A stretch of DNA of 64,000 nt from Fibrobacter sp. UWT2 (GTDB lineage Bacteria; Fibrobacterota; Fibrobacteria; Fibrobacterales; Fibrobacteraceae). Location of the stretch: NCBI RefSeq assembly GCF_900142545.1, contig NZ_FRBF01000013.1:1-64000 (forward strand). Reading direction: 5' to 3'. The translations under genes were made by a program, and so were the position numbers. This document shows, one piece after another, positions 41,490 through 45,265 of the stretch (positions are counted from its first letter, which is position 1; each line of letters opens with the position of its first letter). The notes under the pieces are model-generated. The model made no database searches. It had not been told where the DNA came from and worked only from the letters and a program-made list of their open reading frames with translations.

Positions 41490-41562
41490 GCCCCTATCGT
41501 CTAGTGGCCCAGGACTCGGGATTTTCATTCCCGCAACAGCGGTTCGAAACCGCTTGGGGGTA
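41490..41562 (+). tRNA. tRNA-Glu (TTC), copy 1
   Basis: Acceptor GCCCCTA/TGGGGGT, anticodon stem CGGGA/TCCCG around TTTTCAT (anticodon TTC), T-arm AGCGG-TTCGAAA-CCGCT, discriminator A, no encoded CCA. Identical in sequence to copy 2. Confidence 0.95.
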
Positions 41563-41651: not shown

Positions 41652-41724
41652 GCCCCTATCGTCTAGTGGCCCAGGACTCGGGATTTTCATTCCCGCAACA
41701 GCGGTTCGAAACCGCTTGGGGGTA
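41652..41724 (+). tRNA. tRNA-Glu (TTC), copy 2
   Basis: Exact duplicate of the tRNA-Glu at 41490-41562, 162 bp downstream, with its own promoter and terminator. Confidence 0.95.
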
Positions 41725-41803: not shown

Positions 41804-42319
41804 ATGAAGTTCCTGCTGTACTTAATAATCGCGTGCTTTCTTTGTGGCTGTGCCACAGGTGAATGCAGAACGAACGCATGCCTCACATACAAGAGAACGG
41901 AGGCTTTCTGTAACGAAATCCGAGCAGAGGGAGCCTTTTGTTTGGAATACGATTATTTTAACTACTGTATCAGGGATGGTCTGAACAATCAAAAGATTGC
42001 AACGATGTGCATAGATACCCTGATTTATAAGGAAATCCTTGAGGTCTTTGACGGAAAATGGGCTAAAGGTACTGTTGGCAATAGCCAGCCAACTGAAGAT
42101 TCTACGGGTGCAGGCCCTTATTGGATTGATCGAATAGAATACAGTTATAGTTCCTTTACGCGGGATGTAATTCAAGATACAGTAATTTACCATCATTATT
42201 GTAAGTCAAAAGACAATAACAACTGTGACATGATTTTTTTGATTCACACAAATAGGGGCCCAAGGTACCAATATGATTACAAAACGAAAGAAATAAAAAC
42301 CAAGGGTTGGCCTATGTAG
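41804..42319 (+). CDS. Cysteine-rich small lipoprotein
   Basis: This 171-residue lipoprotein (lipobox FLCGC, near Cys16) has a mature domain with many cysteines (TNACL, AFCNE, AFCLEY, NYCIRD, TMCID, HHYCKS, NNCDM), suggesting disulfides outside the cytoplasm. No family was recognised. It is AT-rich compared with the core genes. ATG 41804 is the start. The frame stays open back into the second tRNA-Glu, which is rejected. TATATTTA at 41763-41770 could be the promoter. Confidence 0.7.
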   Translation: MKFLLYLIIACFLCGCATGECRTNACLTYKRTEAFCNEIRAEGAFCLEYDYFNYCIRDGLNNQKIATMCIDTLIYKEILEVFDGKWAKGTVGNSQPTEDSTGAGPYWIDRIEYSYSSFTRDVIQDTVIYHHYCKSKDNNNCDMIFLIHTNRGPRYQYDYKTKEIKTKGWPM

Positions 42320-42391: not shown

Positions 42392-42550
42392 CCCTCTCTC
42401 AGGAGAGAGAGGGATGGGACTACAAGCTCATCTCATTTCGCTTGTAGCCCTTCGGGTTACGGCCGTTGGCCGTAATCCTTAACTGCGCTTTGTTCGCTTC
42501 GCTCTCGCGCAGTTAATCGAACCCTCTCGAGGGTTCTCATCCCGTTTTTT
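42392..42550 (+). other. Multi-hairpin structured element
   Basis: Consecutive inverted repeats fill this stretch. CCCTCTCTC/GAGAGAGGG is at 42392-42413. CTACAAGC/GCTTGTAG is at 42420-42447. TTACGGCC/GGCCGTAA is at 42457-42475. TTAACTGCGC/GCGCAGTTAA is at 42479-42516. GAACCCT/AGGGTTC is at 42519-42536. An outer stem GGGATGGGA (42411-42419) with TCTCATCCC (42535-42543) can enclose the inner hairpins as a multiway junction, followed by GTTTTTT. No protein is encoded. It could be a terminator-ended ncRNA, a mobile miniature element or an att remnant. Confidence 0.55.
42399..42414. repeat. 16-bp copy of the tRNA-Ser 3' end
   Basis: CAGGAGAGAGAGGGAT is identical to 42594-42609, the 3' terminus and T-arm edge of the minus-strand tRNA-Ser. 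The direct repeats are 195 bp apart. Confidence 0.75.
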
Positions 42551-42555
42551 CAGTA

Positions 42556-42593
42556 AAATAAAAAGCGAAACCTTGCGGCTTCGCTTTTTATTT
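42556..42593. terminator. Terminator beside tRNA-Ser
   Basis: A 14-bp perfect stem AAATAAAAAGCGAA/TTCGCTTTTTATTT around a 10-base loop, T-rich on both strands. On the minus strand it ends the tRNA-Ser transcript. Confidence 0.85.
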
Positions 42594-42594
42594 C

Positions 42595-42679
42595 AGGAGA
42601 GAGAGGGATTCGAACCCTCGGTCCTGTGACAGACTCCGGATTTCGAGACCGGCCCAATCGACCACTCTGGCATCTCTCC
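42595..42679 (-). tRNA. tRNA-Ser (CGA)
   Basis: Class II tRNA on the minus strand: acceptor GGAGAGA/TCTCTCC, D-arm TGCCAGAGTGGTCGATTGGG, anticodon loop CTCGAAA (anticodon CGA), long variable arm and T-arm GAGGG-TTCGAAT-CCCTC. The base after the acceptor stem reads T where serine tRNAs usually have G. No CCA is encoded. Confidence 0.92.
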
Positions 42680-42784: not shown

Positions 42785-42925
42785 CAAATCCAACAAAAAC
42801 GGATCCAAAAAACTTCAGGTTTATAAGCGCGAGTGCGCTTCGGGGCTTTTCAAGGTTCAAGACTGAACCAATCGATAGTGCGGCATGGGCCGCAGATGAA
42901 GTTTACGGGTCCCTGAAGGTGCATT
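42785..42925 (+). promoter_or_regulatory. Structured 5' leader able to mask the RBS
   Basis: Three hairpins lie in a row: AAGCGC/GCGCTT (42825-42840), GGTTCA/TGAACC (42854-42869) and TGCGGC/GCCGCA (42879-42894). CTTCAGG at 42813-42819 is complementary to CCTGAAG at 42912-42918, which overlaps the ribosome-binding site before ATG 42926. The long-range pairing would enclose the hairpins and block translation. Confidence 0.5.
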
Positions 42926-45265
42926 ATGACAAAGAATACTGAAGAACGTATTCCTGAAGAAGCTATTGACCCTAAATCCAAGATTGCCCGCGAAGCAGAC
43001 GCGTTTTTGAACGCTATTGCAGGCGGTGCCGACGAAGACGAGGCCGATGAAGCCGCGTTCCTGGAACTGAACCCGAACGGCGTGGTCGTCGACGAAGAAG
43101 GCGACGTGCTCAAGAAGGGTCGAAAGTCCGCCATTGAAGTCGGCACGAAGGTCGAATTCGAAGAAGGCGAAGTCGAACAGCCCGAAGAAGATGAAAGCGC
43201 CGAAGATTACGCCGAATCTAAAAAGAGCTGTGCCGAACCGGTTGAAGACGAACAACCCGCTGTAAAGGACTCCGCAGAGGAAGAACCGACGGAAGAATCC
43301 GATGACGATTCTGACGAGGAACCGGGCGACGAAGCCCTCGTAACTTTCGAAGACCTCGGACTTGCAGACGAAGTTCTTGAAGCTATCAAGGCCATGGGCT
43401 ACGAGACGCCCTCTCCCATTCAGGCGAAGGCGATTCCCGCCCTTTTGCAGGGAGCAAACTTACTCGGTACGGCCCAGACCGGTACCGGAAAGACCGCCGC
43501 AATCTCGCTTCCGCTGCTTTCGAGGCTCGACTTTAATGGTCACGAAACCTCGATGCTGGTACTCACGCCGACCCGCGAACTTGCAATCCAGGTGGCCGAA
43601 GCCATCCAGCAGTACGCCGCCAAGATGCCCAAGGTGCATGTGGTTCCGGTTTACGGCGGTCAGGACATCGCCGTACAGCTCCGCGCCCTCAAGCGCCAGG
43701 CGAACATCGTCGTCGCTACCCCGGGCCGCCTAATTGACCACATCAAGCGCGGTTCCATCGTGCTTTCGGGCGTGAAGGCCATCGTACTCGACGAAGCCGA
43801 CGAAATGCTCGACATGGGATTCATGGAAGATGTGGAAACCATTCTCAAGGAAATCCCGGCAAGCGCTCAGCGCGCCCTCTTTAGCGCCACCATGCCTAAA
43901 GAAGTCAAGAAGATTATCGAACAGCACTTGGGCGAATACGAAGAAGCCTGCATCGAAGGCAAGACGACAACCGTCGAAAACATCCGCCAGCGTTACTTGC
44001 TCGTAAAGAACGAGCACAAGATCGAGGCACTCGCTCGCGTGCTCGAAGGCGAAGACTTTGACGGCGTGCTGATTTTCGTGCGCACCAAGCAGAACACGAC
44101 CGAAGTCGCCGAAAAGCTGGAAAGCCGCGGCTTCAACGTGGCCCCGCTAAACGGCGACCTCGCCCAGTCCATGCGCGAACGCACCATCAACCGACTCAAG
44201 ATGGGCAAGCTCGACATCGTTGTCGCCACCGACGTGGCCGCCCGTGGAATCGACGTGGACCGCATCACGCACGTGGTGAACTACGACATTCCCTACGACA
44301 CCGAATCTTACGTGCACCGCATCGGCCGTACAGGCCGCGCAGGCCGCAGCGGAAACGCCATCCTCTTTATCACGCCACGTGAAAAGAAGATGCTCAAGAT
44401 TATTGAAAAGGCAACCCGCCAGCCGATCGAAACGATGGAATTGCCCACCGCCGAAATCATCAGCGCAAAGCGCGTCGCCGCCTTCAAGGACAAAATCAAG
44501 AGTGTCATTACCACCGGCGAACTCGACAAGTTCAAGGAACTCGTGGAAAGCATGGTTGCCGAAAGCGCTACAGAAGGTGCAGAACCGCCGACCGCCGCAG
44601 ACATCGCCGCCGCCGTCATCAAGATTTGGCAGAAAAAGCAGCCGCTGTTCCCGGAACTCAAGCCGCTTGACGTTCCTCGCGAACGCCGCGAACGCAATGA
44701 CAATTTTGGTCTTGACCGCGAAGAAAAGAGCCGACTCCGCAAGGAACGCAACGAAGGCGCAAACGGCGTCGAAGAAGGCTACCTGCGCTACTACCTGGGT
44801 GTTGGCCGCCGCGACCATGTGACGCCGCGAGACATCGTAGGCGCAATCGCCGGCGAAGGCAATATCAGCAGTTCCAACATCGGACGCATCAAGCTGTTCG
44901 ACAAGTTCAGCACCGTAGAACTTCCCGAAACCATGCCGCAAGAAGTTCTCGACATTCTCGCCGACATGACGATTCGCGGTAACGAATCCAGATTCCGCCT
45001 GATGACCGACGAACCGCCTACCGGCCCTGCCCCCGGAACTCGCCCGCGTGCCAGCCGCGAAGACCGCCGTAGTTTCCATCGCGATGGAGACCGTCGCAGC
45101 AAAAAGTTCGACGACAAGCCTTTCGAAAACCGCAAGGCCCGCCGCGAAAAAATGTTCGGCGACAAGAAGTTCGGCAAAAAGGAAGACCGCTTCCACAAAG
45201 ACCACGACGAACGCAGCTTTGGCGACAAGCCCTTCCGCAAAACTCGCCGTTTCGGAAGAGTTTAA
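42926..45265 (+). CDS. DEAD-box RNA helicase, DeaD-like, with DbpA domain
   Basis: This 779-residue helicase has an acidic extension (1-138) followed by the Q-motif (about 140-168) and a complete helicase core: AQTGTGKT (183-190), PTRELA, TPGRLIDH, DEAD in VLDEADEMLDMGF, SATMP and HRIGRTGRAGRSG. A DbpA-type RNA-binding domain follows (about 625-705, YLRYYLGVGRRDHVTPRDIVGAI). The C-terminal tail of about 75 residues is rich in Arg, Lys, Asp and Phe. DeaD/CsdA-type helicases act in ribosome assembly and cold adaptation. The structured leader suggests control at translation. Confidence 0.93.
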   Translation: MTKNTEERIPEEAIDPKSKIAREADAFLNAIAGGADEDEADEAAFLELNPNGVVVDEEGDVLKKGRKSAIEVGTKVEFEEGEVEQPEEDESAEDYAESKKSCAEPVEDEQPAVKDSAEEEPTEESDDDSDEEPGDEALVTFEDLGLADEVLEAIKAMGYETPSPIQAKAIPALLQGANLLGTAQTGTGKTAAISLPLLSRLDFNGHETSMLVLTPTRELAIQVAEAIQQYAAKMPKVHVVPVYGGQDIAVQLRALKRQANIVVATPGRLIDHIKRGSIVLSGVKAIVLDEADEMLDMGFMEDVETILKEIPASAQRALFSATMPKEVKKIIEQHLGEYEEACIEGKTTTVENIRQRYLLVKNEHKIEALARVLEGEDFDGVLIFVRTKQNTTEVAEKLESRGFNVAPLNGDLAQSMRERTINRLKMGKLDIVVATDVAARGIDVDRITHVVNYDIPYDTESYVHRIGRTGRAGRSGNAILFITPREKKMLKIIEKATRQPIETMELPTAEIISAKRVAAFKDKIKSVITTGELDKFKELVESMVAESATEGAEPPTAADIAAAVIKIWQKKQPLFPELKPLDVPRERRERNDNFGLDREEKSRLRKERNEGANGVEEGYLRYYLGVGRRDHVTPRDIVGAIAGEGNISSSNIGRIKLFDKFSTVELPETMPQEVLDILADMTIRGNESRFRLMTDEPPTGPAPGTRPRASREDRRSFHRDGDRRSKKFDDKPFENRKARREKMFGDKKFGKKEDRFHKDHDERSFGDKPFRKTRRFGRV

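Follow-up and report, generated by a model that had tools for sequence, protein, structure and literature searches.

Organization of the locus behind tRNA-Ser(CGA)

The window, meaning the whole stretch of 64,000 nucleotides that was analysed, belongs to contig 13 of a Fibrobacter-like genome (G000). An intact tRNA-Ser(CGA), called by ARAGORN and Rfam, is located at 42595-42679 on the minus strand, and it is the donor of a copied 3' half that lies nearby. Given this orientation, an element of about 150 bases at lower coordinates is situated downstream of it, behind a strong terminator-like hairpin of the intrinsic type recognised from its sequence (AAATAAAAAGCGAAGCC-GCAA-GGTTTCGCTTTTTATTT, 42556-42593, minus strand). 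Such a hairpin fills the gap between tRNA and element in nearly all Fibrobacter relatives, and its sequence changes fast. Along the minus strand the order of parts is tRNA, terminator, inverted copy of the 3' half, T5, a four-hairpin module of ~100 nt, and T3.

T5 and T3 are the two pieces of the copied tRNA 3' half, which is broken in the T-loop after A58. All features of the element are given here on the minus strand. The T5 copy (GAGGGTTCGA, 42517-42526) exactly reproduces tRNA positions of about 49-58, and the T3 copy (ATCCCTCTCTCTCCTG, 42400-42415), also exact, comprises the T-arm 3' strand, the acceptor 3' strand, the final base of the tRNA and a single base of its flank. Between them, at positions 58/59, lies the module of 101 nt (42416-42516). 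Ahead of T5, the sequence GGGATGA (42537-42543; GGGAT with GA after it) is an inverted T-arm 3' strand and forms the 5' strand of stem P0, with the T3 copy as pairing partner, while hairpin P1 (GAACCCTC-GA-GAGGGTTC, 42519-42536) pairs an inverted copy of the T-arm 5' strand with T5; in most relatives P1 carries a GNA loop. Within the module, P2 (TTAACTGCGC...GCGCAGTTAA, 42479-42516, tip GA-GC-GAA-GC-GA) and P3 (TTACGGCC-AAC-GGCCGTAA, 42457-42475) are backed by covariation, and P5 (CTACAAGC...GCTTGTAG, 42420-42447) by compensatory changes in 8/8 outer pairs. The mini-hairpin P4 (CCC-GAA-GGG, 42448-42456) is near-invariant, with a C-G to T-A compensation in 3/28 sequences. Finally, T3 pairs with a partial inverted copy that follows it (CCCTCTCTC-TCCT-GAGAGAGGG, 42392-42413), and this site is the attachment point of further short units in relatives.

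The dense hairpin structure noted in the original prediction is real, with a folding energy of -107.2 kcal/mol compared to -63.1 +/- 4.7 kcal/mol in 200 dinucleotide shuffles (z -9.4, 0/200). A multi-way junction comprising P0 to P5 can form from one strand, and the element strand reaches -41.5 kcal/mol under DNA parameters. The reported 16-bp copy of the tRNA 3' end was also confirmed: there are exactly two copies of CAGGAGAGAGAGGGAT, at 42400-42415 and 42594-42609, in the same orientation and 194 bp apart, and the second of them consists of the 3' end of tRNA-Ser-CGA together with one further base. T5, a second tRNA-derived piece, and the inverted copy ahead of it had been overlooked. The proposed outer stem of 9 bp is reduced to 6 bp under strict pairing, as one G-T pair lies within the 9 bp, and the T6 run was ruled out as a terminator of the element, since it is not conserved in relatives.

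Several other features were observed around the element. A small ORF encoding a lipoprotein-like signal (MKFLLYLIIACFLCGCATGE..., 41804-42319, plus strand) sits between it and two identical tandem tRNA-Glu(TTC) genes (41490-41562 and 41652-41724), each with one terminator; in relatives, the region past this tRNA-Glu pair is crowded with short terminator-like repeats, and the downstream neighbours of the element vary from genome to genome. Congeners share a strongly conserved leader (42810-42925; CTTCAGGTTTATAAGCGCGAGTGCGCTTCGGGGCT...GCGGCATGGGCCGCAGATGAAGTTTACGG) with several hairpins ahead of a DEAD-box helicase gene (42926-45265); it gave no Rfam match and is perhaps a cis-regulatory RNA.

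Distribution across Fibrobacteraceae

A single copy lacking both conservation and transcription had been named in the original prediction as the outcome that would tell against it. A DNA search of the own genome does return the element as single-copy by sequence, yet it is conserved genus-wide, and the single-copy result is misleading, since what the units at different tRNAs have in common is structure rather than sequence for the most part. Weaker matches elsewhere lie behind Pro-CGG, Pro-TGG and Gly-CCC tRNAs, each carrying the T5 and T3 of its own tRNA. The tRNA-copy signature was found behind 6/50 tRNA genes of this genome, namely Ser-CGA, Pro-TGG, Pro-CGG, Gly-CCC and both Gly-GCC, and behind no others.

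The covariance model R1, built from 28 units from Fibrobacter only, matched 75/80 genomes of the genus (39/40 of the good ones) as well as other genera of Fibrobacteraceae, and there were no matches outside this family in the phylum sample. In 12 genomes, 38/40 regions around R1 matches contained a Ser-CGA, Pro-CGG, Pro-TGG, Gly-CCC or Gly-GCC tRNA, and the other two were interrupted by contig ends. Most congeners have the element downstream of their tRNA-Ser, some of them as tandem units. The tRNA-Ser(CGA) locus of the window has a single full unit, and tandem units occur in relatives and at Pro-TGG of the own genome, each unit in such arrays having its own terminator. The copy number of units differs between relatives, and losses or truncations at tRNA-Ser were observed in several of them (e.g., G022, G025, G028, G029, G030 and G036).

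Correspondence between element arms and the neighboring tRNA

Against a panel of 59 T-arm pairs, the own tRNA was the best (81) or a tied (8) match to the T5/T3 copies in 89/90 loci, a count that is biased because these loci had been chosen by their match to the own tRNA. The less biased part of the evidence is provided by sequence variants within one tRNA species. Where the Ser tRNA has ACCCC, the element also has ACCCC (7/7), and one Ser tRNA with CTCACCC is accompanied by an element with CTCACCC; likewise, GTGGG/CCCGC of Pro-CGG in another genus (3/3) and an ATCCC variant of Pro-CGG (3/3) recur in the element.

Module similarity was 0.45 for the same tRNA in different genomes, 0.27 for different tRNAs in the same genome, and 0.26 when both differed. 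In 50/53 testable cases the orthologue was nearer than a module of the same genome, and only the modules of Gly-CCC and Gly-GCC mixed between tRNA loci. Because the modules cluster by tRNA locus and not by genome, the element is inherited in place and does not move between tRNAs at present.

Relationship to the RtT RNA of Escherichia coli

The best non-tRNA Rfam match on the right strand was RtT (RF00391), which aligned over its full length with 30.5 bits in the window and 31.8-33.0 bits in relatives, below the gathering cut-off of 45 bits (E 2e-4 for the 221-base stretch). Matches to psbl-rps4, mir-4484, RsaE, sX4 and STnc380 also remained below their cut-offs and were set aside as chance or tRNA-overlapping. 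In the reverse direction, R1, with no E. coli sequence in its training, detected three E. coli rttR units with E values of 7e-9 to 4e-8. In E. coli K-12 the order GGGGAAGGAT-GA-GAAGCTTC-GACC-AAGGTTCGA, hairpins and then ATCCTTCCCCCACCACCA is found three times behind tyrV, and GTTGCC-GCA-GGCAAC, CCCGAAGGG and GCGC-GCA-GCGC are among the hairpins of the unit. On this direct comparison and the reciprocal search, which reveal the same plan, we assign the element to the RtT class with high confidence, though not as a formal member of RF00391.

A wider search in GTDB species was performed with a pattern derived from the Fibrobacter P1 and chosen to avoid Fibrobacter T-stems. It returned 14 stretches, of which three were chance hits in coding-like sequence. 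Nearly all the others were found behind a tRNA whose T-arm is copied: in Marinobacterium and an Oceanospirillaceae MAG this tRNA is Tyr or Pro-TGG, in a gammaproteobacterial MAG it is Glu-CTC, and in a Spirochaetes MAG a degenerate Arg-CCT; two more lay at contig edges. Whole-genome searches with R1 in six of the genomes with GTDB matches gave few matches; those inspected adjoin tRNAs, and Ser-GGA was added to the list. A strict pattern was present in 3/369 gammaproteobacterial genomes, beside tRNAs in at least 2 of the 3; either the class is rare in gammaproteobacteria or the strict pattern is too strict. The distant matches could also be convergent. No prior generalisation of rtT was found in a literature search that covered mostly openly accessible papers.

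Folding as DNA or RNA

It was rightly anticipated that the hairpins are linked to the tRNA copy and that relatives and covariation were worth seeking. The stems covary strongly, with a covariation score of 0.543 compared to 0.177 in shuffles (0/500), and the score collapses when the structure is slid. Changes on both sides were observed in 27/39 pairs, and double-compensated cells numbered 226 compared to 70 in shuffles, 0/500 of which reached 226. One-sided changes were rare: in one MAFFT alignment of 28 related sequences, G-T accounted for 1.7% of element pairs and the ratio of G-T to A-C was 17:10, whereas G-U reached 7.4% in tRNA stems of the same genome, which are an imperfect control. 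Compensation is thus present, but G-U does not stand well above A-C, as it should under selection at the RNA level.

Loop types were also uneven. GNA triloops made up 49% of element loops and 4% of the loops of adjacent terminators, and the ratio of GNA to its complement TNC was 226:14, an excess that singles out the tRNA-sense strand. C-GNA-G loops are very stable mini-hairpins in DNA. Extraordinarily stable hairpins have been described as a concept for both DNA and RNA (PMC10527192). GNA triloops and tandem G-A pairs are not exclusive to DNA and are found in RNA too. Taken together, the strong covariation, the near absence of G-U and the GNA triloops of the tRNA-sense strand favor folded single-stranded DNA over RNA, and we infer with moderate confidence, slightly better than even, that maintenance acts on the sense strand folded as DNA.

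A competing explanation is a structured ncRNA, as the original prediction had offered among its options, which would be transcribed by terminator read-through or from its own promoter, processed at tRNA-like 3' ends and active in trans like the proposed E. coli RtT RNA. The covariation agrees with it, as does the annotation of rttR, the nearest relative, as an RNA, and T-stem pairing could provide a tRNA-like T-arm. Moreover, a covarying tandem GA motif has been reported in the RtT RNA (PMC7657543), and the GA-xx-GNA-xx-GA tips of Fibrobacter elements match it. The strong terminator between tRNA and element in Fibrobacter, the lack of conservation of T6, the scarcity of G-U pairs, about as common as A-C, and the GNA triloops argue against it, and an RNA function alone leaves unexplained why the arms follow the sequence of each tRNA. 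The structural part of the prediction thus stands, and the E. coli relative does yield RNA, but both the pairing statistics and the kinds of loop agree better with DNA, and we consider a trans-acting RNA unlikely for the Fibrobacter element. E. coli rtT is a long-known repeat without an agreed role, and as it is known as an RNA, an RNA function is likely in some members of the class.

Origin and maintenance of the element

In five relatives, the module interrupts a whole tRNA copy at this very site of the T-loop, involving tRNA-Ser (G024, G009 and G035), Pro-CGG (G015, a 97%-identical copy) and Pro-TGG (G079). These copies support entry of the module into the T-loop of redundant tRNA copies. 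The three Ser cases (L084, L085 and L082 in G024, G009 and G035, respectively) are degenerate full-length tRNA-Ser-like genes that lie upstream of an intact tRNA-Ser. They have a promoter-like TATACTAAATTG box and the 100-nt module in the T-loop, and they could be expressed as tRNA-like RNA with a giant T-loop. Behind tRNA-Ser of G030 (L044), the two arms are left as a palindrome (GAACCCTCGAAGAGGGTTCTCATCCC) and the module is cleanly absent, which represents either a loss or a pre-insertion state. Another insert of ~100 bp (GCCCTCGGGTGTAAACCGAGGG...GAGAGC.AAGTC...) was observed in G079, where it interrupts the broken tRNA-Pro in the anticodon arm (L229), and in G033, inside P3 (L088); it looks like a further dispersed repeat.

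We propose, with a probability of roughly 60%, that the element is a member of a widespread tRNA-anchored class that includes the E. coli tyrT repeat and is maintained in cis at the DNA level. The active form would be the tRNA-sense strand as folded single-stranded DNA or an extruded cruciform. DNA-level copying, by template switching or gene conversion among the tRNA, the T5 and T3 copies and the inverted arms, would keep the stems perfect and the arms matched to the tRNA. Judging by the broken copies in five relatives, the module may originally have inserted into the T-loop of a tRNA copy, full or partial, that was redundant. Most speculatively, the element would persist through a service in cis to the tRNA gene, without which it should be lost cleanly by deletion between the direct T3 copies; it might provide a spare 3' end from which the tRNA is restored following insertion or excision of a mobile element, or act as a decoy for tRNA-targeting integrases. 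Confidence in any specific function is low, and the spare-end or decoy role is weakened by the finding of no non-Xer integrase near these tRNAs in 14 genomes.

A broader version is held tentatively, below even odds: rtT would be one case of a pan-bacterial class of DNA elements that sit in the T-loops of tRNA copies, fold from the sense strand, have their arms matched by DNA-level copying and act as cis companions of tRNA genes. As part of this version, such a companion would have no described counterpart in function or mechanism.

It is also conceivable, but improbable, that the element is a functionless by-product, in which duplications of tRNA 3' ends and quasi-palindromes are tidied only by template-switching and slippage during replication. 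The DNA-like compensations without G-U intermediates speak for it, as do the shifts in copy number between relatives and the losses and truncations at tRNA-Ser described above. Salmonella rtT similarly varies in copy number and behaves as a VNTR (PMC2658671). Such tidying does not account for the conserved order of parts, for P4 and the GA tips, which are near-invariant across phyla, or for the retention of several loci in nearly every genome despite direct repeats of 14-16 bp. Repeats of this length should permit clean deletion by slippage.

The original prediction had also offered a miniature mobile element or an att remnant. A MITE, a satellite or an attL/attR scar of a tRNA 3'-end integrase, with the T3 copies as att repeats, would account for the directly repeated tRNA 3' end, the constant insertion point at T-loop positions 58/59, the whole tRNA copies interrupted there, the tandem arrays with one terminator per unit and the patchy distribution across phyla. 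The only tyrosine recombinases of the own genome are two XerC/XerD-like proteins on other contigs, and the recombinase or element genes that accompany att sites were seen neither nearby nor elsewhere in the genome; no Y1 transposase was found in 11/14 element-carrying genomes, the own genome included, no non-Xer integrase within 50 kb of a match on the same contig in 14 genomes, and no similar sequence in the phages, plasmids and viral contigs searched. Same-genome copies are not more alike than orthologues, as those of a mobile MITE would be, and the same five tRNAs are used family-wide. On these recombinase, Y1 and module-clustering results, an attL/attR remnant, an integrase satellite and a RAYT/REP element were rejected as present-day states and a mobile reading is very unlikely, although past mobility is possible.

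Comparison with known systems

Placing the element in a tRNA-anchored class turns a local oddity of E. coli into a class open to comparison, dating and testing. Its members share one plan at tRNAs for Ser, Pro, Gly, Glu, Arg and Tyr, spread over no fewer than three phyla, with arms that track the sequence of each tRNA and with DNA-like rather than RNA-like pair statistics. It also shows that a structured element can be inserted in tRNA T-loops with no recombinase accompanying it, and it bears on the duplication of tRNA 3' ends and their use by mobile DNA.

Among known systems, integron attC sites provide a distant analogy, in that a site-like structure could form from one folded DNA strand, but sequence and structure are unlike, and no IntI-type array or cassettes were seen. 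REP/BIME sequences with RAYT (Y1) proteins resemble the element as palindromes between genes for which a role as folded single-stranded DNA is conceivable; in contrast to them, the Fibrobacter element is tied to tRNAs, has tRNA-specific arms and occurs without Y1_Tnp in 11/14 carriers. With the attL/attR sites of tRNA-integrated elements it shares a tRNA 3' end directly repeated on either side of an insert, whereas the insert is here ~180 bp of hairpins without a recombinase, the T-arm is split and accompanied by an inverted copy, and inheritance is vertical.

The closest counterpart is RtT/RttR of the E. coli tyrT operon. The Fibrobacter element differs from it in lying beside Ser, Pro and Gly tRNAs in a different phylum and in its position behind a terminator, whereas the E. 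coli repeat is inside the tRNA transcript. In both, however, the unit lies right behind a tRNA and closes with the 3' end of that tRNA, the parts follow an identical order (inverted T3, GA, inverted T5, T5, hairpins, with CCCGAAGGG and GNA-loop hairpins among them, and T3), and the model searches match reciprocally.
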